Shown here piece by piece: positions 4,760-30,042 of a stretch of 37,122 bases of DNA (the first letter of the stretch is position 1; each line of letters begins with the position of its first letter). The stretch comes from Flavobacteriaceae bacterium (GTDB lineage Bacteria; Bacteroidota; Bacteroidia; Flavobacteriales; Flavobacteriaceae): NCBI GenBank assembly GCA_027080135.1, contig JALWUJ010000161.1, positions 1 to 37,122 on the forward strand, written 5' to 3'. The notes beneath the pieces are model-generated. The model was not told the origin of the DNA. It did no database searches and worked only from the letters and a program-made list of their open reading frames with translations. The translations under genes were made by a program, and so were the position numbers.

Positions 4760-4860
4760 CTCCTGCAAGGTTTTTATACCTTGTAGGTATAAAATAAAGT
4801 AAAGAAGATAGGGAGATCCCGAAATTTCGGGACTGCCATCGCAGGAATTATGAGATACAA
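4760..4860 (+). repeat. Composite intergenic repeat copy 2
   Basis: CTCCTGCAAGGTTTTTATACCTTGTAGGTAT + ATCCCGAAATTTCGGGACTGCCATCGCAGGAATTATGA; compare 2498-2600. Confidence 0.85.
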
Positions 4861-8900: not shown

Positions 8901-8916
8901 AAGACAATATTGTCTT
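8901..8916. promoter_or_regulatory. Perfect palindrome AAGACAATATTGTCTT upstream of the 601-aa gene
   Basis: AAGAC-N6-GTCTT; same architecture as 10783-10802 and 23479-23496. Confidence 0.7.
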
Positions 8917-8967: not shown

Positions 8968-10773
8968 ATGAAAAAGTCACATTCATTTCATATCCCAGTA
9001 ATGGGAATAGGATTTACCATAGACACACCTATTAAAGTTGCACAATACGGTATGGATTCTGTAATTTCTTTGGTAGATGATATTTTATTGGAGAAGTTGC
9101 GAAAAATGTATAGCGAAAAATTTGAGATTCCTTACCATGAAATTTCAGATAAAGTAGAGGATTTTAGAGCAAAACGCATTACTTCTTATTTAAATTTAAT
9201 CAATGATATTGCCATAGAAAAATTTGAGTCATTGAAAAATGTTTCCGAAGAAAAAAGCAATGAAATTAAAAAATATGTCAGCTTTTTACCAGAATATTCA
9301 AGCCTTAAAAAAGAATTTTTAAAACTTACTTCTTCAGGAGTAAATTATTCTGAAATTAAAAAATGGGCAAAGAAAAACCTTACCATGGGAAGTATTGATG
9401 TAAACATCATGACCAAAGTGGATAAGGATAATTACAAAGAAAATGAGAAACTAAGCGGAGAATTTAACGATGCTCACGCGGCACTTCGAGGATTTGCGAA
9501 CAGTAATTTAAAATCTTCGGTAGTTCTTTCCGCAGGAATGAATCCTAGATTATACGCTTATATGTCTCAGTTTGATGATTTTTATCCCAACGAAAAAGGA
9601 GAGATCAACAAGAAGATTATTTTAAAAGTGAGCGATTATCGTTCGGCAATGATTCAGGGTAAATTTTTAGCTAAAAAAGGATTATGGGTCTCAGAATATA
9701 GAATCGAATCTGGATTAAATTGTGGAGGTCACGCTTTTGCAACCGACGGATTTTTACTAGGCCCTGTATTGGAAGAATTCAAAGAAAAACGAACGGAATT
9801 AATCGATTCTATTCAAGGTATATTAAATTCAGTCTTAGAAAGTCAGAACAGAACTATTCCAACAAACCCTTTATCCATAGAGATTACCGCTCAAGGAGGT
9901 GTTGGAACCGAAGAAGAACACGACTTTTTATTAGATCATTATCAAGTAGATTCTGTAGGTTGGGGAACGCCCTTTTTATTGGTTCCAGAAGCGACAACGG
10001 TAGATAAAAAAACGCTTCAACAATTAGCAGAAGCCAAAGAAAAAGACCTGTATTTAAGTGACATTTCACCACTTGGAATTCCGTTTAATAATCTTCGTGG
10101 AAACACCAAAGATTTAGAAAAAGAATCAAAAATTGATATTGATAGACCAGGATCTGTTTGCCCAAAAAGATTTGTCGCTTTAAACAAAGAATTTAGTGAA
10201 AAAGGAATTTGTACCGCTTCCAGAGATTATCAAAGAAATAAAATTAAGGAGTTAACTTCCGAAAATTTACCAGAACAAGAGCACCAATTTAAACTTAATA
10301 AAATAACCGAAAAAACCTGTACCTGTGTAGGTTTAGGAACTTCTGCCCTCCTAGCTTACGGTTTGGATACCAAGGTGGAAGGCGAAGGTGTTTCGGTGTG
10401 CCCAGGACCAAATATGGCGTATTATTCTAAGGTGATGAGTTTAAAGGAAATTACCAATCACATCTACGGAAGGCAAAATGTAATGACCAGAAACGATCGC
10501 CCAAATATGTTTATTAAGGAATTGAATATTTACATCGATTATCTTAAAAATAAGTTGGAAGAAACCAAAGGAGAATTAGATAAGAAGCAAGAAAAATACT
10601 TCTCAACTTTTTCAAATAATTTAAAGGAAGGGATCTCTTATTACAACAACTTATTTACTACGGTAAAAGATACTTTTGAAGCCTCAAAAGCAACTGTTTT
10701 AAATGAATTAGAATTCAGTAAAAACAAATTACAAGTCATTAGTATTGCAATTGAAAACAGCAAGAAAATATAA
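8968..10773 (+). CDS. Uncharacterised Cys-rich protein, possible FMN-binding TIM-barrel/Fe-S oxidoreductase with coiled-coil C-terminus
   Basis: 601 aa; ITAQGGVGTEEEHDFLLDHYQVDSVGWGTPFLLVPEA resembles phosphate/FMN-binding loops of TIM-barrel flavoproteins; cysteines in SGLNCGG, GSVCPKR, GICTASRDY, KTCTCVGLG, SVCPGPN. Family not recognised. Confidence 0.6.
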   Translation: MKKSHSFHIPVMGIGFTIDTPIKVAQYGMDSVISLVDDILLEKLRKMYSEKFEIPYHEISDKVEDFRAKRITSYLNLINDIAIEKFESLKNVSEEKSNEIKKYVSFLPEYSSLKKEFLKLTSSGVNYSEIKKWAKKNLTMGSIDVNIMTKVDKDNYKENEKLSGEFNDAHAALRGFANSNLKSSVVLSAGMNPRLYAYMSQFDDFYPNEKGEINKKIILKVSDYRSAMIQGKFLAKKGLWVSEYRIESGLNCGGHAFATDGFLLGPVLEEFKEKRTELIDSIQGILNSVLESQNRTIPTNPLSIEITAQGGVGTEEEHDFLLDHYQVDSVGWGTPFLLVPEATTVDKKTLQQLAEAKEKDLYLSDISPLGIPFNNLRGNTKDLEKESKIDIDRPGSVCPKRFVALNKEFSEKGICTASRDYQRNKIKELTSENLPEQEHQFKLNKITEKTCTCVGLGTSALLAYGLDTKVEGEGVSVCPGPNMAYYSKVMSLKEITNHIYGRQNVMTRNDRPNMFIKELNIYIDYLKNKLEETKGELDKKQEKYFSTFSNNLKEGISYYNNLFTTVKDTFEASKATVLNELEFSKNKLQVISIAIENSKKI

Positions 10774-10860: not shown

Positions 10861-11640
10861 ATGAGTAATCATACACCCTATTATCACGAAGTTGGAAAGG
10901 AAGTTGAAGTTTTTGAGCAAGCCTACAAAAACAAACTTCCTTTTCTTTTAAAAGGACCAACAGGTACCGGAAAATCTCGTTTTATTGAATATATGGCGAG
11001 TAAACTGGAAACAAAAATCATTACTATTTCCTGTCATGAAGAAACCTCATCTACAGATTTAGTTGGGCGATATATTATCAAAGGCGCCGAGACCGTTTGG
11101 TTGGATGGGCCTTTAACCACTGCCGTTAAGGAAGGTGCAATTATATATTTGGATGAAATTGCCGAAGCTCGCCCCGACGTTATTGTTGCGATACATTCCT
11201 TAACCGATCACCGTCGAGAATTGTTTATCGACAAATTAGGTGAAGTGGTAAAAGCACATTCAAATTTTATGTTGGTTGCTTCATTTAATCCCGGATATCA
11301 AAGAGGGTTCAAAGAATTAAAACCATCTACAAGGCAACGATTTGTAGCGATGACATTTGATTATCCTTCCGAAAAAATTGAAACTGAGATTTTAATTAAT
11401 GAAACCGAAATAGATTCAAGTACGGCAAAAAAACTAGTCAATATTGGAGGGAAAATCAGAAATTTAACCGAATTAGGATTAACCGAAACCGTTTCAACTC
11501 GTTTGTTGGTTGATGCTGCGAAGTTAATTTCTAGTGGTTTGGCAAAACGACTTTCTGTACATGTTGCAGTGGTCGAACCCTTAACAGATGATGTGGAAGT
11601 AGCTACTGCATTAAAGGATTTATGTGATTTGATGATATAG
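10861..11640 (+). CDS. norQ: NorQ/CbbQ-type MoxR AAA+ ATPase
   Basis: 259 aa; Walker A GPTGTGKS, Walker B IIYLDEIAEARPDV, SFNPGYQRGFKELKPSTRQRF. Confidence 0.9.
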   Translation: MSNHTPYYHEVGKEVEVFEQAYKNKLPFLLKGPTGTGKSRFIEYMASKLETKIITISCHEETSSTDLVGRYIIKGAETVWLDGPLTTAVKEGAIIYLDEIAEARPDVIVAIHSLTDHRRELFIDKLGEVVKAHSNFMLVASFNPGYQRGFKELKPSTRQRFVAMTFDYPSEKIETEILINETEIDSSTAKKLVNIGGKIRNLTELGLTETVSTRLLVDAAKLISSGLAKRLSVHVAVVEPLTDDVEVATALKDLCDLMI

Positions 11641-11697: not shown

Positions 11698-13473
11698 ATG
11701 TTCGAGTTCGAGCCAGATGAATATATTTTTACCAAGTTCGCTTTCTTTTTCAAAAACCGAAAAAAGAAAAAAGAAGCACAACTTCAATACGCGGTAAATT
11801 TAAGTGATATTAAATCTCGACTTACCATTTTCGCAAGAGCTGTCACTGGAAATGCCATTGAAATATACGATGCAGAACGAGAAGGCGGTTACCGAAACAA
11901 CAACTTCTTTTTACCTTCAAAATTTTCAGAATTTAAAAAGATAGAAGATAATATCTCCTACTATTTATTTCGGATTTTGTATTTATCCATTCAGAAAAAC
12001 TTAGATTTAAATTGGACAGGTGCTGAAGAACACGAACTAAAAGAATCTCAAGAAGCAGCTAAAAACCATTCCGATAAAGTATTGAAAGAATTGTTCCTTC
12101 AATTTCCAATTACCGAAAAATACCATCAAGATTTATTAGCGTACTATTCCCAAAAAACAAAAAAAGGTAAAGAGGTGGACACTACGTTTATCTACGGAAA
12201 ATGGATGCGTAATAACCCAGAAGATGAAACGGAAAAAAAATTAAAAAACTTTAGCGATAAAGTTAAAAAAGCACCAAATGAAAAGCCAAAAACGGTTTTA
12301 AAAAACAAAGCGGTAGAGGAGATTATTTCTGTTCAGATAGATCAGAAACAAGTGGAAGATATGGTCTTACAACATCAGTTTGAAAAAGTAGAAACTGCTG
12401 AAGAATTTGGTGGAAACTTTAGAGATATGGATGGCGATGATGATTTACAAGACCACGAAAATGCCTTGGAAGAATTGAATATGAAATACACTGTTCGTGT
12501 TGATGACACGGTACATTCAGTATATCAAGCAGATTTTATTGAGAACACGACTGTTTCAGAAAGTGCCGAAGCAGCATCTAGTAATTATCATATCGAATAT
12601 GATGAATGGGATTATACCAAACGTAAATACAAAGAGAATTTCTGTAAAGTATATCCTAAAAACATCACTGAAACCAATATTCCGTTTTATAAAAAAACCA
12701 TTCGTGAAAACGCTTCGACATTGATGGGACTCCGGAAAATGTTGACCAATGTAAATAATAAATTTCAGCAACAACGTAGACAAACTCAGGGGGAGGAATT
12801 CGATTTAGATTCGTTGATAGATTTGTATGTTGATGTTCATAGTGGGCACACTCCTTCCGAAAAAATATACCTATCCAAACGTAAAAAAGAAAAAGACCTT
12901 TCCATTTTAATGTTGCTAGATGTTAGTTTGTCAAGTGATGGTTATGCTGCCGGAAATAAAGTAATTGACGTGGAAAAACAGGTTTCTATCTTATTTGGAG
13001 AGATTTTAAATGAGTTTAATGTTGATTTTTCCATCGATTGTTTTCATTCAAAAACTAGAAATTATTCGACCTATCAAACTATTAAGTGTTTTGATGAAGA
13101 TTGGGACAAAGCCAAATTCAAAGTGGGATCTATTCAACCCGAAGGTTATACTCGTATTGGTGCTGCGTTGCGGCATTCTGGAGCGATGTTAGACAAACGT
13201 GATACTAAAAATAAATGGGTGATTCTTATTTCGGACGGGAAACCAAACGATTACGATAAATATGAAGGAAAGTACGGTGTAAACGATGTAAAACAGGCCT
13301 TACGAGAACTAAACGAGCGAAATATTAATTCCTATGCATTGGCAATCGAGGCGGAAGCTAAGTATTATTTGCCGCAGATGTTTGGGCAAAATCACTATCA
13401 AATTTTAACCACTCCTGTTGAGTTATTAGAATCTTTGGTGAAGTTATATGAAAAAATTAAGCATCAATCATGA
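11698..13473 (+). CDS. norD: NorD-like VWA-domain protein
   Basis: 591 aa; C-terminal VWA with MIDAS-like LLDVSLSS, GYTRIGAALRH, LISDGKPNDYDKYEGKYG; follows norQ. Confidence 0.9.
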   Translation: MFEFEPDEYIFTKFAFFFKNRKKKKEAQLQYAVNLSDIKSRLTIFARAVTGNAIEIYDAEREGGYRNNNFFLPSKFSEFKKIEDNISYYLFRILYLSIQKNLDLNWTGAEEHELKESQEAAKNHSDKVLKELFLQFPITEKYHQDLLAYYSQKTKKGKEVDTTFIYGKWMRNNPEDETEKKLKNFSDKVKKAPNEKPKTVLKNKAVEEIISVQIDQKQVEDMVLQHQFEKVETAEEFGGNFRDMDGDDDLQDHENALEELNMKYTVRVDDTVHSVYQADFIENTTVSESAEAASSNYHIEYDEWDYTKRKYKENFCKVYPKNITETNIPFYKKTIRENASTLMGLRKMLTNVNNKFQQQRRQTQGEEFDLDSLIDLYVDVHSGHTPSEKIYLSKRKKEKDLSILMLLDVSLSSDGYAAGNKVIDVEKQVSILFGEILNEFNVDFSIDCFHSKTRNYSTYQTIKCFDEDWDKAKFKVGSIQPEGYTRIGAALRHSGAMLDKRDTKNKWVILISDGKPNDYDKYEGKYGVNDVKQALRELNERNINSYALAIEAEAKYYLPQMFGQNHYQILTTPVELLESLVKLYEKIKHQS

Positions 13474-13973
13474 AGCTGTTTTCAATTCTATTTTTAACAA
13501 CTCTATTGATTTCTTGTCAGCAAAAAGAAATTAATTATTCTGAAGTTATTTTAGAAAATGGAATTATAAACACTGAGTTTCTTCAAGAAATAGATGATTC
13601 TGAGAAAGCATTGATTAGCGGTTATTTATTTGCTTACGGAAATGAATGTACTTCAGAGAAAAGCCATATTAAATGCGATATTCTAAAGGAATTATCTGTT
13701 GAAAATGAATGTGATCCAGAACATATTTCAAAGCTTCAAAAATGGTTTTCAGAAGATCTAATGATGAGAATAAAATTATTGAATTGCCCTAATTTACCTC
13801 AAAAAGGAGCCATTCAAAATACAATTTATAAAATTGAATTAAAACGTAAAAACGACACGATTACTATAGTATTCAGCGTAAAAGGACTGAATAATTCTCA
13901 AGAAAAAAGTTGGGATATAGAGCAATCAAATTCATATATCATAAAAAATGAAACCTTTATAATTTTAAAATAG
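13470..13973 (+). CDS. Predicted lipoprotein of unknown function
   Basis: Signal peptide plus lipobox MKLFSILFLTTLLISC; ATGA overlap with the norD stop suggests translational coupling. Confidence 0.75.
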   Translation: MKLFSILFLTTLLISCQQKEINYSEVILENGIINTEFLQEIDDSEKALISGYLFAYGNECTSEKSHIKCDILKELSVENECDPEHISKLQKWFSEDLMMRIKLLNCPNLPQKGAIQNTIYKIELKRKNDTITIVFSVKGLNNSQEKSWDIEQSNSYIIKNETFIILK

Positions 13974-14555
13974 ATGGAAGCTACAAAAATCGATTATAAA
14001 AACGTCTATTATCCGCCAGGAGGAATCTTGCTCTGGATTATTATTTTTTTAGAACTCATCACTTTTGGTGTTGCATTAATAGCCTTGGTATTTTATACAA
14101 AAGAAGACCCTGTTTTGTTTCACGAATCTCGATTACATCTCAACGTTACTTTTGGAACCATCAATACTGTTTTATTACTAACCAGTGGATTTTTTATGGC
14201 AGTTACTGTTCATGAACTCAAACAAAATCAGAAAGAAAAAGCTAAAAAACACTTGCTTTTAACAATGCTTTTTGGAGTGTTATTTCTAGTGTTGAAATCT
14301 ATTGAATACAATGCAAAATTAGACGCAGGATTCCTAATAGGAAGCAATACATTTTTTACTTTTTACTGGATGCTAACTTTATTTCATGTGATTCATGTGA
14401 TAGTTGGTTTGGTGATTTTATCTTCGGTTTATTTTGGGTTAAAGAAGAAAAACTCAACTACTAAAATTGAAGATGTAGAAGCAAGTGCTGCCTTTTGGCA
14501 TATGTGCGATTTGATTTGGTTATTGCTTTTTCCTGTAATTTATTTAATCTTTTAG
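13974..14555 (+). CDS. norE: NorE-like cytochrome c oxidase subunit III family protein
   Basis: 193 aa, five or so TM segments; PPGGILLWIIIFLELITFG, FTFYWMLTLFHVIHVIVG, FWHMCDLIWLLLFPVIY. Confidence 0.87.
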   Translation: MEATKIDYKNVYYPPGGILLWIIIFLELITFGVALIALVFYTKEDPVLFHESRLHLNVTFGTINTVLLLTSGFFMAVTVHELKQNQKEKAKKHLLLTMLFGVLFLVLKSIEYNAKLDAGFLIGSNTFFTFYWMLTLFHVIHVIVGLVILSSVYFGLKKKNSTTKIEDVEASAAFWHMCDLIWLLLFPVIYLIF

Positions 14556-17071: not shown

Positions 17072-17527
17072 TTAATCTTCTAAAGCATTGAAATCTTTAA
17101 GAGAAAGTACCCTTCCAGTAACCTTAATTTCTTTGGTAAATTGTGCGATGGTTTTATCTCTAAAATCGTTCAGTAATTTATCTTTAAACGGAGAAACTAT
17201 AAAATGAACTGGACACGGATTTTCATCACTACATTTAGAAAGTCCTAAAAAGCAATGGTCAAATTTTTCGGTTCCGTCGATACATTTTACAATTTCCCAA
17301 ATTGAATTGCTACAATTTTCTTTTGTAAGATAGAATCCGCCGTTAGGTCCTTTTATAGAAGAAACTAATTCGCTTTTTGCTAATTGTTGAAGTAATTTTG
17401 CCAAAAAAGGTTGAGGAGTTTCCAATTCTTCGGCGATTAACTTTACTCCTATTCTATTTTTTTCGTCGGAATGTATTGCTAAATAAAGCACCGACCTAAT
17501 TGCGTATTGACAAGCGTTTGATAACAT
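17072..17527 (-). CDS. Rrf2-family transcriptional regulator with three-Cys (Fe-S) motif
   Basis: 151 aa; CQYAIRSVLYLAIHSDE, LAKLLQQLAKSELVSSIKGPNGGFYL, CFLGLSKCSDENPC (C-x6-C-x5-C). Confidence 0.9.
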   Translation of the reverse strand: MLSNACQYAIRSVLYLAIHSDEKNRIGVKLIAEELETPQPFLAKLLQQLAKSELVSSIKGPNGGFYLTKENCSNSIWEIVKCIDGTEKFDHCFLGLSKCSDENPCPVHFIVSPFKDKLLNDFRDKTIAQFTKEIKVTGRVLSLKDFNALED

Positions 17528-21414: not shown

Positions 21415-22644
21415 CTATTTTTTAATTTGACTCTGTATTATTCCTCCAATTGCCACCAAAAACACTGCACTTGCTAAAAATAAAACGAGGTAATATAAAT
21501 CACCCGACCAAGAAAATATCCCATTTCCAAATAAGAGTATTTCGGTAAGTAAAAAAGCTAAAAAGTATAATTTATAAGTTGTTTTGGATATGCTGAAGAA
21601 TTTAAAAACACTTAAAAACAGAAAGATTGAAATACTTACAATTCCTAAAAACACCCAATGTAAATAGGCGATTATCAAATCTTTATTCATAGAAACAAGG
21701 TTTGCAATTACCGGGAAAGAACCAACTATTTGGAAAATAAGTTTCAGTATGAATAATAATTTTACCGTTTTTAATAATTGATTTTCTATTTTGGTAAGTA
21801 TTCCTTTTAATCGTTTTAGGAAGTGTTTAATAGATTCTAACAAAACAATATAGGCTGCAAATTGTAAAATACTACCTACTAAAGCAAGAGTGTTAAAAAG
21901 TATCGATGGTTTCATCCACAATACAGAATGAAAAAAAGTTAGAAAAACGCCTACTAAAAACAAATGATAAAACAATTTGAATTTTTTTTCCAGAATAAAA
22001 ACTCCTTTATTTTTAAATAAGCCAATTTCTAATAATACTAATGAATTTTTGTTTTTTTCAAGAACCACAAAAAACAAACCTAATAAAGCTACTATAAACC
22101 ATCCGTTATATTGAAAATGCAAGAAGAAATAAATGGCATTTCGGTACCAAGATGAACTGCTTCCGAGAGTGTTCATTATAATTCCCAAAGCCCAAGGACC
22201 AAGGCTTGAAAACACCATCAACCATAAAGCTGCTCTAATTAATTTATAGGAATATAATTGTTTTTGTTCTAAAGAAGTATGTTTTAAAAACAACCAAAGA
22301 AAGCCGTAGGAATTCAGTAAAAACAAAGTGGAAAAAACAATAGAAAAGAAAGCATACCCTGTAAATGGAAAGCTAAACATCATTCCAATAATGGAAATTT
22401 GAGTACTCCAAAATAGTTTGTTGAAGGTTTTATCTTTTCCTTTTTCAGAAAGAAATAGCTTGTAAATAAGAGTAGTTAATGCTGTATAAACCCAACCCAA
22501 TAAAGCAATATGGGAATGCGTATGCAATATGTTTTTGTAGTTGAAGGTAATATCAACCACGTGAAACATTCGCATAAACACTCCCAAAAGTGCGACTATA
22601 AAAAAGTAGCCAAAAGCTATTTTAATTTGTTGTTTTAGATTCAT
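21415..22644 (-). CDS. Polytopic His-rich membrane protein, possible heme/copper-binding (NnrS/COX1-like)
   Basis: 409 aa, about 12 TM; LHTHSHIALLGWVY, FFLHFQYNGWF, FFHSVLW, AYLHWVFLG membrane histidines; lies downstream of ric on the same strand. Confidence 0.55.
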   Translation of the reverse strand: MNLKQQIKIAFGYFFIVALLGVFMRMFHVVDITFNYKNILHTHSHIALLGWVYTALTTLIYKLFLSEKGKDKTFNKLFWSTQISIIGMMFSFPFTGYAFFSIVFSTLFLLNSYGFLWLFLKHTSLEQKQLYSYKLIRAALWLMVFSSLGPWALGIIMNTLGSSSSWYRNAIYFFLHFQYNGWFIVALLGLFFVVLEKNKNSLVLLEIGLFKNKGVFILEKKFKLFYHLFLVGVFLTFFHSVLWMKPSILFNTLALVGSILQFAAYIVLLESIKHFLKRLKGILTKIENQLLKTVKLLFILKLIFQIVGSFPVIANLVSMNKDLIIAYLHWVFLGIVSISIFLFLSVFKFFSISKTTYKLYFLAFLLTEILLFGNGIFSWSGDLYYLVLFLASAVFLVAIGGIIQSQIKK

Positions 22645-22725: not shown

Positions 22726-23448
22726 CTATCCTAATAATTTTTTTTCTAAAGCGATTGCTTTTCCGTGTAAAATATTATTTTCTAAATGGATATGTTGATG
22801 TAAATCTTCTTCAAATTCTTGCAAACTAGCATATAAAGCTCTAAAAGTGTTACAGGCTTCTGCTGGAGGTGTATAGTTATTGCTAAGTTTTGCAATTTCT
22901 TTAAAAATATCTCCTACTGTTTCGTGTTCATGCTCCATCATATTAATGGGATTGTTCACCGTACCAAAATGAGCTGCTTTTAAATCGGTTCCTTCTTTAT
23001 CGGCTTTAATTAATTGTTTGATGAAAGGGAAAAGCACCAATTCTTCTTTCTTTAAATGTGCGGCTAGATCTGCAGCTGCTTCTTGAAACAAACGATTTAT
23101 TTCTATCACTTCTTCGTGATGATGTCCATGAACCGTTGCTACTTTCTCTGCATACTGACTAATAATAGGCAAACTTTGCTCCACATAAGTATGATGTACA
23201 TTTACAATATGATCGATTAGAAATCCTAATTCCCAACTGTTATAATCGTGAGATCTGTTTGGAGTTTCATCTACAGCAATTAATTCTTGCTCAAGCATTT
23301 TATAATCTACATTGTGTTTTGCACAGGCTTTTTCGAGTGAAATTCCTCCACCACAACAAAAATCGATTCCGTGTTTTTTAAAAACGTTGGATGCTTTAAT
23401 GTTTTCGGTAACTACTTCTGCTACTGTTTTATTTTCGTTAATATTCAT
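22726..23448 (-). CDS. ric: Iron-sulfur cluster repair di-iron protein (RIC/ScdA/YtfE)
   Basis: 240 aa; N-terminal KTVAEVVTENIKASNVFKKHGIDFCCGGG (ScdA_N), hemerythrin-like His/Glu set (HIVNVHHTYVEQ, HEHETVG, HQHIHLENNIL). Confidence 0.95.
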   Translation of the reverse strand: MNINENKTVAEVVTENIKASNVFKKHGIDFCCGGGISLEKACAKHNVDYKMLEQELIAVDETPNRSHDYNSWELGFLIDHIVNVHHTYVEQSLPIISQYAEKVATVHGHHHEEVIEINRLFQEAAADLAAHLKKEELVLFPFIKQLIKADKEGTDLKAAHFGTVNNPINMMEHEHETVGDIFKEIAKLSNNYTPPAEACNTFRALYASLQEFEEDLHQHIHLENNILHGKAIALEKKLLG

Positions 23449-23478: not shown

Positions 23479-23496
23479 AAAGATTATATTATCTTT
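23479..23496. promoter_or_regulatory. Palindrome AAAGAT-TATATT-ATCTTT upstream of ric
   Basis: 6-bp perfect arms with N6 spacer, 31 bp upstream of the ric ATG; same architecture as 8901-8916 and 10783-10802. Confidence 0.7.
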
Positions 23497-27716: not shown

Positions 27717-28166
27717 ATGTATTATTACGACTTTCAAGTGGTGCTTCAAGAAGTGCCCGGAGAGATTAGTCTTTGCTTTTCTATTTCGGGTTGCAAACTC
27801 CATTGTGAGGGCTGTCATTCCACTTTTCTTTGGAAAGAAGAAAATGGAAATCTCCTCACCGAAAGCGCATATACTTCACTACTAAATCAATATAAAAACC
27901 TGGCTACTTGCGTGCTTTTTATGGGCGGCGAATGGCATCAAGACGAATTGATAAAAATGCTTCAGCTAGCAAAAAAACATCATTTTAAAACCTGCCTTTA
28001 TACGGGTGAAGAAACTATTTCAGAAGAAATAAAAAACCATTTAACGTACCTGAAAACCGGAAGTTGGAAAATGGAACTAGGCGGATTAGAAAGCGAAGAA
28101 ACCAATCAAAAATTTATACATATACAGACCAACAAAAACCTTAATTATTTATTCCACAAAAACTAA
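27717..28166 (+). CDS. nrdG: Anaerobic ribonucleoside-triphosphate reductase activating protein
   Basis: 149 aa; radical SAM CKLHCEGCHS (CxxxCxxC), VLFMGGEWHQDEL. Confidence 0.92.
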   Translation: MYYYDFQVVLQEVPGEISLCFSISGCKLHCEGCHSTFLWKEENGNLLTESAYTSLLNQYKNLATCVLFMGGEWHQDELIKMLQLAKKHHFKTCLYTGEETISEEIKNHLTYLKTGSWKMELGGLESEETNQKFIHIQTNKNLNYLFHKN

Positions 28167-28170
28167 AAGT

Positions 28171-30042
28171 ATGATACGACTTACCCACTCTCAAGTTTCC
28201 GAAAAAATTAATTTTATCGACCATTACATCAATTCTTCCAATGCTGCCGATGGCTCCAAAGTAGATGCCAATGCTAATGTAACTTCAAAAAACATTGCTA
28301 CCATGGAAGCCGAATTGAATAAAGATATTAATATTCAGGTAAACAGGGCTTTGGTAAAACGTCAGATTGCTTCTCTTTTTGGAGATGATTTGGCAAACGA
28401 ATACATACGACAAATTGAAGCTCACGAAATTTATGTTCACGACGAAACTTCGTTAAAACCTTATTGTGTTTCGATAAGTATGTATCCGTTTTTGTTTGAC
28501 GGATTGACAAAATTAGGTGGCGAAAGTCAGGCGCCAAAACACTTAGAGAGTTTCTGTGGTGAGTTTGTAAATCTTGTTTTTGCCATAAGTTCTCAATTTG
28601 CTGGGGCTTTAGCAACGGTTGAGTTTTTAATGTATTTTAATCATTTTGCGAAAAAAGATTATGGCGAAAATTACCTCGAAAACCATCCTGATTTAGTTGC
28701 CAATCACCTTCAACATGTAGTATATGCTATAAATCAGCCTGCTGCTGCAAGAGGGTATCAGTCTGTTTTTTGGAACATTTCTCTATACGACGAAAGTTAT
28801 TTTAACAGTATGTTCGAAGATTTTCTATTTCCAGATATGTCCAGACCTCAATGGGAAGATGTTAAAAAATTGCAGGTCTTTTTTATGAAATGGTTCAACC
28901 AAGAACGCACCAAAGCCATTCTAACTTTTCCAGTGGTTACTGCTGCGATGTTGGTAAATGACGGGACTCCTGTGGATAAAGAATTTACCGAAATGTGTGC
29001 CCAAGAACTCAGTGAAGGAAATTCTTTTTTTATCTATCAATCCGAAAGTGCCGACAGTCTAGCTTCCTGTTGTCGCTTACGAAGTGAAATTAGCGATAAT
29101 ACATTTAGCTATTCCTTAGGAGCTGGTGGCGTGGCAACAGGCTCTATAAATGTGATTACTTTAAATATGAATCGCTTGATACAACAAGGTGCTAATATTC
29201 AAGAGGAAGTACAAAAAATTCACAAGTATCAAGTAGCGTATAGAAAGCTGATTGAAGAATATGAAGAAGCAGGATTACTGCCCGTTTACAAAGCTGGTTT
29301 TATCACATTAGACAAACAATTTTTAACCATTGGCATCAACGGAATGGTGGAAGCTGCCGAGAGTCAAGGAATAAAAGTAAGTAATAATACGGCTTATAAA
29401 AAGTTCGTCAATAAATACTTAAAAGTCATTTACGATGAAAACAAATTAGCTAAAAAACAATACGGTTATATGTTTAATACCGAATTTGTTCCTGCTGAAA
29501 ACTTAGGTGTTAAAAATGCGAAATGGGATCGTGCCGACGGACTTTTTGTTCCTCGTGATTGTTATAATTCGTATTTCTATGTGGTGGAAGACCATAAAAC
29601 CAACACCCTTGATAAAATTATTCTTCACGGAAATGAAAACATTCAATATTTAGATGGCGGTTCTGCACTTCATTTAAACTTAGAAGAAACACCCAACAAA
29701 GAGGGATTTATCAATTTACTGAATGCTACAGCTGCTGCGGGTTGTAATTATTTCTGTTTCAATATTAAAATTACTATTTGTAACGATTGCAACCATATAG
29801 ACAAACAAACCCTTCAGAAATGTCCTAAATGTGAATCGAAAAATATTGATTATGCCACACGAGTAATTGGTTATTTAAAACGGGTTTCTAGTTTTAGTAG
29901 CAAGCGACAGGTAGAACACGATTTGCGTCATTATCATATAAAACCACCAAAAGATTCCTTAGGAAAAAGCAGAGTTAGTACCTTTGTTGGAAGTACAAAA
30001 AAAGTACGAAACGTGTTTGAAGAATCATTGTATTCAGAATAA
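28171..30042 (+). CDS. nrdD: Anaerobic (class III) ribonucleoside-triphosphate reductase
   Basis: 623 aa; IYVHDET, SLASCCRLRSE, GAGGVATGSINVITLNMNRL, Zn site CNDC...CPKC, glycyl-radical region ATRVIGYLKRVSSF. Confidence 0.95.
   Translation: MIRLTHSQVSEKINFIDHYINSSNAADGSKVDANANVTSKNIATMEAELNKDINIQVNRALVKRQIASLFGDDLANEYIRQIEAHEIYVHDETSLKPYCVSISMYPFLFDGLTKLGGESQAPKHLESFCGEFVNLVFAISSQFAGALATVEFLMYFNHFAKKDYGENYLENHPDLVANHLQHVVYAINQPAAARGYQSVFWNISLYDESYFNSMFEDFLFPDMSRPQWEDVKKLQVFFMKWFNQERTKAILTFPVVTAAMLVNDGTPVDKEFTEMCAQELSEGNSFFIYQSESADSLASCCRLRSEISDNTFSYSLGAGGVATGSINVITLNMNRLIQQGANIQEEVQKIHKYQVAYRKLIEEYEEAGLLPVYKAGFITLDKQFLTIGINGMVEAAESQGIKVSNNTAYKKFVNKYLKVIYDENKLAKKQYGYMFNTEFVPAENLGVKNAKWDRADGLFVPRDCYNSYFYVVEDHKTNTLDKIILHGNENIQYLDGGSALHLNLEETPNKEGFINLLNATAAAGCNYFCFNIKITICNDCNHIDKQTLQKCPKCESKNIDYATRVIGYLKRVSSFSSKRQVEHDLRHYHIKPPKDSLGKSRVSTFVGSTKKVRNVFEESLYSE

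Follow-up and report, generated by a model that had tools for sequence, protein, structure and literature searches.

We found that P0001, a 601-residue open reading frame with an ATG start at 8968-10773 on the forward strand, forms a family of its own within the FabX branch of the nitronate monooxygenase superfamily. The window, that is, the whole stretch of Flavobacteriaceae DNA analyzed here, comprises 37,122 nucleotides. Our preferred reading, to which we give slightly less than an even chance, is that P0001 is an FMN TIM-barrel acyl-ACP oxidoreductase with a C-terminal Fe-S subdomain, acting in an O2-independent lipid step, most simply a cis-dehydrogenation/isomerization.

The P0001 family represents a real and conserved gene that is present in single copy. 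The contig belongs to a 2.42-Mb genome (81% complete) carrying one P0001, and homologues were found in 73 of the 201 genomes sampled from Flavobacteriaceae, the family to which it belongs, as well as in 116 of 299 genomes drawn across the phylum Bacteroidota. Nearly all of them are full-length and intact, with 46-95% identity, and the closest relatives come from Flavobacteriaceae metagenome assemblies. A first-pass annotation, made from the letters alone, had described a cysteine-rich protein of no recognized family. Every segment that it quoted is present, and P0001 produced no match to Pfam and none to PDB sequences. One NCBIfam match, NF001645 (E 6.5e-4), was dismissed because it scored 19.7 bits against a cut-off of 162. 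Searches for plasmid copies found none, nor did searches for viral relatives by sequence (viral contigs) or by fold, and no description of the family was found in the open-access literature. The suggestion of an undescribed component holds for the family but not for its kind, as P0001 forms a new branch of the FabX/PfaD/nitronate monooxygenase superfamily. Within the FabX branch, the family is set apart by a cysteine pattern of its own and by two helical regions that have been added. The elements of the protein, placed on FabX, are as follows.

8968-10773, forward: whole coding sequence of the FabX-like protein P0001, 601 aa (open reading frame, homologues and AlphaFold2 model)
8995-9012, forward: first barrel strand and glycine loop PVMGIG (residues 10-15), at the GGMG FMN contacts of FabX (profile alignment; M12 and G13 conserved; contacts from PMC8626469)
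9124-9387, forward: mainly helical insertion, residues ~53-140, mostly missing in FabX (AlphaFold2 secondary structure; profile-alignment gap)
9397-9417, forward: DVNIMTK (144-150), with N146 at the FabX FMN ligand N99 (profile alignment; N146 in 78/78)
9631-9681, forward: helix 222-238, equivalent to the ACP-binding helix alpha7 of FabX (ungapped register, rank 1 of 564 offsets; R225 and K237 in 77/78)
9706-9732, forward: ESGLNCGGH (247-255), catalytic-His motif, with H255 at FabX H182 and C252 at S179 (profile alignment, ungapped register; roles from PMC8626469)
9880-9975, forward: FMN phosphate site, TAQGGVGT (~305-314) and VGWGTPF (~330-336) (profile alignments, ungapped register)
10036-10083, forward: AKEKDLYLSDISPLGIP (~357-372), equivalent to FabX KxEDIxxIKSPVGYP (profile alignment; S367, P368 and G370 in 78/78)
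10150-10332, forward: predicted Fe-S subdomain with invariant C398, C415, C451 and C453, between two FabX-homologous motifs (cysteines in 78/78; putative ligation)
10387-10455, forward: SVCPGPNMAYYSKVMSLKEIT, with C478 at the FMN-contacting F339 of FabX (ungapped match to FabX 339-357, rank 1 of 583 offsets)
10507-10770, forward: C-terminal helical extension (514-601), missing in FabX and weakly conserved (alignment and AlphaFold2 model)

The fold was assessed on an AlphaFold2 model built with 62 homologues (mean pLDDT 85.5, pTM 0.88). When this model was compared with the PDB by Foldseek, the top matches were all Helicobacter pylori FabX entries (E 3e-9, probability 1.00, TM-score 0.65 by target length), followed by PfaD, the enoyl-reductase domains DfnA and MlnA, and nitronate monooxygenase. 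Modeling another homologue, ~56% identical to P0001 (pLDDT 78.3), gave FabX first (E 5e-9) and the same order, so that both models support the FMN TIM-barrel fold. By query length, the TM-score was only ~0.4, because ~240 residues of P0001 have no counterpart. Profile comparisons relied on sequences from other Bacteroidota genomes, namely, a FabX-like protein of 361 aa (L175; E 3e-71 against the H. pylori FabX chain) and a family of 420-aa nitronate monooxygenase-like proteins (L177-L184; E 1e-27 against FabX). With hhalign, 78 P0001 homologues matched this FabX-like set at P = 1.8e-5 in local mode (197 columns) and 1.5e-5 in global mode, while none of 29 unrelated families did better than 0.018 and none of 20 column shuffles better than 0.19. 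A FabK-type set aligned in the right register at P 0.055, too weak alone, so that a query of greater diversity and the FabX-like set were both required; the 420-aa family taken by itself failed in global mode. P0001 is thus very probably a barrel protein of the nitronate monooxygenase superfamily, in line with the TIM barrel proposed at first reading.

The register of individual residues was derived from FabX of H. pylori, an FMN/[4Fe-4S] acyl-ACP dehydrogenase/isomerase (PDB 7E1Q) that inserts a cis double bond, using O2 in vitro (PMC8626469). Its catalytic histidine is H182, its ACP-docking helix carries K152, I156, K159 and R164, and its [4Fe-4S] cluster, ligated by C300, C304, C308 and C320, is required for activity (PMC8626469). 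The numbering obtained from the PDB alignment agreed with that publication at every residue checked. The ungapped FabX segments 147-184, 216-229 and 339-357 each found their best position, among 564-588 offsets, at P0001 residues 220, 306 and 478, respectively. The fourth segment, SPxGxP, needed a one-residue shift, since its first register ranked 161st and the shifted one fell in the top three. In these registers, P0001 R225, I229, K232 and K237 correspond without gaps to FabX K152, I156, K159 and R164, with R225, K232 and K237 conserved; G310-G311 correspond to G220-G221, and residues 331-334 lie at Q240-T243. The segment running from ITAQGGVGT to VGWGTPFLL, which the annotation had likened to the phosphate-binding part of an FMN barrel, is supported in that role by the structural matches, the FabX register and the profile alignment.

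Conservation followed the same map. H255, N146, GG310-311, S222, R225 and K237 show no or almost no variation, and H255, G310, G311 and G331 are both invariant and in register with the GGH and GG...GT(S) motifs of the superfamily. Long invariant strings mark the core (VNIMTK, SGLNCGGHAFA, QGGVGT, GWGSPF, CPGPN), while residues ~80-140 and the last 90 vary. The annotation had predicted a long C-terminal coiled coil; the region is indeed helical, but the model shows three poorly conserved helices (~514-597) rather than one coiled coil. Six cysteines, C252, C398, C415, C451, C453 and C478, were invariant in 100 of 100 aligned homologues and in all 78 of a reduced diverse set filtered to <80% identity. 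Two of these, C252 and C478, align with FMN-contacting residues of FabX (S179 and F339). The other four lie between the SPxGxP and C478 motifs, where FabX has its [4Fe-4S] segment, and this position between homologous motifs suggests that they serve as [4Fe-4S] ligands. The metal or Fe-S site suggested by the annotation is supported by this placement, with ligation as a prediction, and the C-terminal part of P0001 probably forms an Fe-S subdomain. Their spacing is C398-x16-C415-x35-C451-x-C453 instead of the Cx3Cx3Cx11C of FabX. Moreover, FabX E175, which contacts FMN and pantetheine, is replaced by S248, with E247 one position off. Given the altered spacing and this replacement, occupancy of P0001 by FMN and an Fe-S cluster is predicted only. 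Together with the ~240 extra residues, both differences count against the FabX reading.

We next considered the surroundings of the gene, which are listed below with three copies of a palindromic site.

8901-8916, no strand: perfect 16-bp palindromic operator AAGACAATATTGTCTT, ~50 bp before P0001
10785-10800, no strand: operator AAGACTATTTTGTCTT, upstream of norQ
10861-11640, forward: norQ (AAA_5, i.e., AAA+, and CbbQ_C; Pfam)
11698-13473, forward: norD-like gene (VWA domain; Pfam)
13974-14555, forward: COX3-like, norE-like gene (Pfam)
17072-17527, reverse: regulator of the Rrf2 family that may read the operator (Rrf2 genes are repeatedly found next to P0001 and nosZ)
22726-23448, reverse: ric/scdA, NO-responsive Fe-S repair protein (TIGR03652 above cut-off)
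23480-23495, no strand: operator AAGATTATATTATCTT, upstream of ric
27717-30042, forward: 4Fe-4S activase (nrdG-like) and nrdD, anaerobic ribonucleotide reductase

As the annotation had stated, P0001 directly precedes norQD, with norQ starting 88 bp after its stop codon and norD next. Between norD and the COX3/norE-like gene lies a 167-aa open reading frame (13470-13973, forward) that overlaps norD by 4 bp and has no family match. A 409-aa membrane protein (21415-22644, reverse) found no match in Pfam or NCBIfam; in other Bacteroidota (L166, L167, L170, L174) its homologues repeatedly lie next to ric, nosZ and P0001. A conserved operon for P0001 was rejected, as its neighbors vary (ppc, nadAB, an aminoacyl-tRNA synthetase, a gyrB-like gene, a helicase). 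Its frequent neighbors within Flavobacteriaceae are nadA/nadB and ppc; elsewhere it lies by unrelated genes. No fatty-acid gene was found as a recurrent neighbor, which counts against the lipid reading. In these loci, the nad, ppc and nos names come from reading the sequences and the remaining names from Pfam.

The palindrome before P0001, singled out by the annotation, is real but unremarkable taken alone, since the window holds four perfect 16-mer palindromes against 1.7 expected. It fits the pattern AAGAYWATWTTRTCTT, which has four exact occurrences in the 2.42 Mb; three are in the window, preceding P0001, norQ and ric, and the fourth is on contig 90. A copy with one mismatch immediately precedes a norC-norB pair on contig 92, and a second such copy is found ahead of a MauG-like di-haem protein. 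Because the genome-wide one-mismatch count (15) barely exceeded that of a backward control (12), the operator argument rests on positions. Across Bacteroidota, AAGA-N8-TCTT was found upstream of 8 of 8 ric-like genes as compared to 63 of 1420 other genes, nos genes included, and it therefore has the appearance of a genuine operator linked to NO, for which the Rrf2 protein may be the reader. The proteobacterial NsrR consensus is different (PMC1274295). We note it as a candidate Bacteroidota NO-regulon operator of ric-like genes, norC, norQ and several nosC (window positions 8901, 10785 and 23480; L210 position 1361; L163 and L166-L173). Its conservation across all P0001 homologues found no support, as only 7 of 129 carry it (the window and close relatives, L163, L173 and one chance-like case), which is not above background. 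Thus, co-regulation with nor genes would be at most a trait of this lineage and not of the family. The window also contains two identical perfect 16-bp palindromes, TCCCGAAATTTCGGGA, at 2557-2572 and 4817-4832, each 33 bp before an open reading frame (a ModE-domain protein at 2590 and moeB at 4850, respectively); they are probably the operator of a ModE-like regulator over Mo-cofactor genes.

The association with denitrification was then examined across genomes. P0001 and clade-II nosZ (TIGR04246) occurred together in 57 of 299 genomes (odds ratio 3.1, Fisher P 1e-5, uncorrected for phylogeny), and in 16 of these 57 they lay within 20 kb of each other, against ~0.6 expected. The 16 linked genomes fall into four family groups, with 11 in a single one. 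Mapped loci place P0001 near nosC-nosZ-nosL-nosD-nosF-nosY, an Rrf2 regulator, ric and hemN, and nrdD adjoins it in some. Of the 14 genomes with a gene of the norQ type (CbbQ), 13 also carry P0001. The link is a tendency toward denitrification or anaerobiosis and not a rule, since 59 of 116 P0001 carriers have no nosZ and only 9 of 20 nrdD genomes have P0001. The other 11 belong to other family groups, carry higher-scoring NrdD and are presumably strict anaerobes.

These data leave several functions to be weighed against each other. The annotation had suggested that P0001 could be a client of the NorQ/NorD chaperone pair, and a client or partner matured like NorB would suit both the placement directly before norQD, found in the source genome and three close relatives, and the presence of P0001 in nearly every norQ-type genome. 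The co-occurrence check that it called for spoke against this, since a CbbQ_C protein is missing from 103 of the 116 carriers and most homologues sit away from norQD. Among the 13 genomes with both genes, 8 have them on separate contigs and one has them 2.8 Mb apart. As most carriers have no norQ, we rejected P0001 as a strict NO-reductase accessory or NorQD client, and even a looser partnership is highly improbable. A wider version of the NO link makes P0001 a dedicated flavoenzyme of NO or nitrosative stress, either an Fe-S/FMN electron donor or a detoxifier, co-regulated with norCB, norQD and ric. The operator common to P0001, norQ, ric and norC in the source genome, the 13 of 14 norQ-type genomes and the physical linkage to nosZ in four family groups speak for such a role, and to this extent the NO link drawn by the annotation stands. 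We nevertheless consider it unlikely, because most homologues have no operator, half of the carriers are without nosZ and the nearest relatives of P0001 are acyl-thioester enzymes.

The relatives themselves offer two further readings. A nitronate monooxygenase detoxifying nitroalkanes would share the superfamily and the catalytic His motif with P0001, but such structures score below FabX and PfaD, no PF03060 match was found at E up to 1, and the conserved cysteines and the ACP-type helix would be left unexplained; this function is very unlikely. Alternatively, P0001 could be an enoyl or other acyl-thioester reductase of the PfaD or trans-AT ER type, working with a polyketide or lipid synthase in the reductive direction, in which case its FMN would receive electrons either from NAD(P)H or, by way of the Fe-S cluster, from a ferredoxin. 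In favor of this, PfaD, DfnA-ER and MlnA-ER come next after FabX structurally and share the barrel and a C-terminal cap with P0001. On the other hand, no conserved cysteine cluster is known in these enzymes, no PKS or pfa genes were recognized by P0001 in the mapped loci, and the PfaD model TIGR02814 (NCBIfam) gave no match at E up to 1. We therefore regard a reductase of this type as improbable, about as much so as a dedicated NO-stress enzyme.

An acyl-thioester is the rather likely substrate of P0001, and a role in unsaturated fatty-acid synthesis is possible, though a little less probable than the acyl-ACP oxidoreductase reading as a whole. We infer the acyl-ACP substrate, the direction of the reaction and the electron acceptor. 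According to this acyl-ACP oxidoreductase model, the acyl-carrier protein would dock on the basic helix 222-238, H255 would take a proton beside FMN, FMN would accept the electrons, and the putative [4Fe-4S] cluster at C398, C415, C451 and C453 would pass them on. Facultative, often denitrifying, Bacteroidota would in this way make unsaturated fatty acids without an O2-dependent desaturase. The occurrence of P0001 near nosZ, nor, hemN and nrdD, and its apparent absence from presumed strict anaerobes, fits such an O2-independent stand-in for a desaturase. That P0001 is specifically the O2-independent desaturation enzyme of denitrifying Bacteroidota, with the Fe-S electrons going to the N-oxide respiratory chain and not to O2 as in FabX, is a speculative extension with a low probability.

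If the lipid reading is true, it would explain how oxygen-using Bacteroidota make unsaturated membranes during N-oxide respiration, and it would bear on the electron acceptor of FabX-type enzymes without O2. For a protein with many invariant residues, carried by ~40% of sampled Bacteroidota species and previously unnamed as a family, the analysis supplies a fold together with probable cofactors and active-site residues. Given its linkage to nosZ, P0001 may also serve as a genomic marker of a low-oxygen lifestyle in important N2O consumers.

Last, we compared P0001 with the known systems. Nitronate monooxygenase and FabK (PF03060, TIGR03151) share its barrel and GGH motif, but their HMM matches were not significant, and the Fe-S-type cysteines set P0001 apart. 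The 420-aa nitronate monooxygenase-like family (L177, L184) matches PF03060, carries EKTCLCTGM, similar to EKTCTCVGLG of P0001, and has further cysteines after the barrel; it differs in the spacing of its other cysteines and in having no long helical extension, and it occurs in genome families without P0001. As a separate observation, this family with its Cys-rich C-terminal subdomain is itself unnamed (L177-L184; genome families f17 and f15) and is present in most or all sampled genomes of f17, a probably Prevotella-like group without P0001. PfaD and the trans-AT enoyl reductases DfnA/MlnA resemble P0001 in the FMN barrel with a C-terminal cap and belong to the acyl-ACP substrate class. A precedent for the lipid reading is a relative in Neisseria gonorrhoeae, the nitropropane dioxygenase-like protein NGO1024, which is induced anaerobically (PMC3032703) and, as cited in PMC11300592, is reported to be essential for anaerobic unsaturated fatty-acid synthesis, with the acceptor given as unknown. 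FabX, grouped with UfaA/NGO1024, was the best structural match in both models. The two proteins have only 14-16% identity, and P0001 (601 aa versus 363) adds the helical insertion and the C-terminal helical extension, with further differences in cysteine spacing and at S248, C252 and C478. They nevertheless share, in register, the catalytic His, the FMN glycine motifs, the basic ACP helix, SPxGxP and GxN..S..E, followed after the barrel by a Cys-rich subdomain that in P0001 holds at least four invariant cysteines (78/78).
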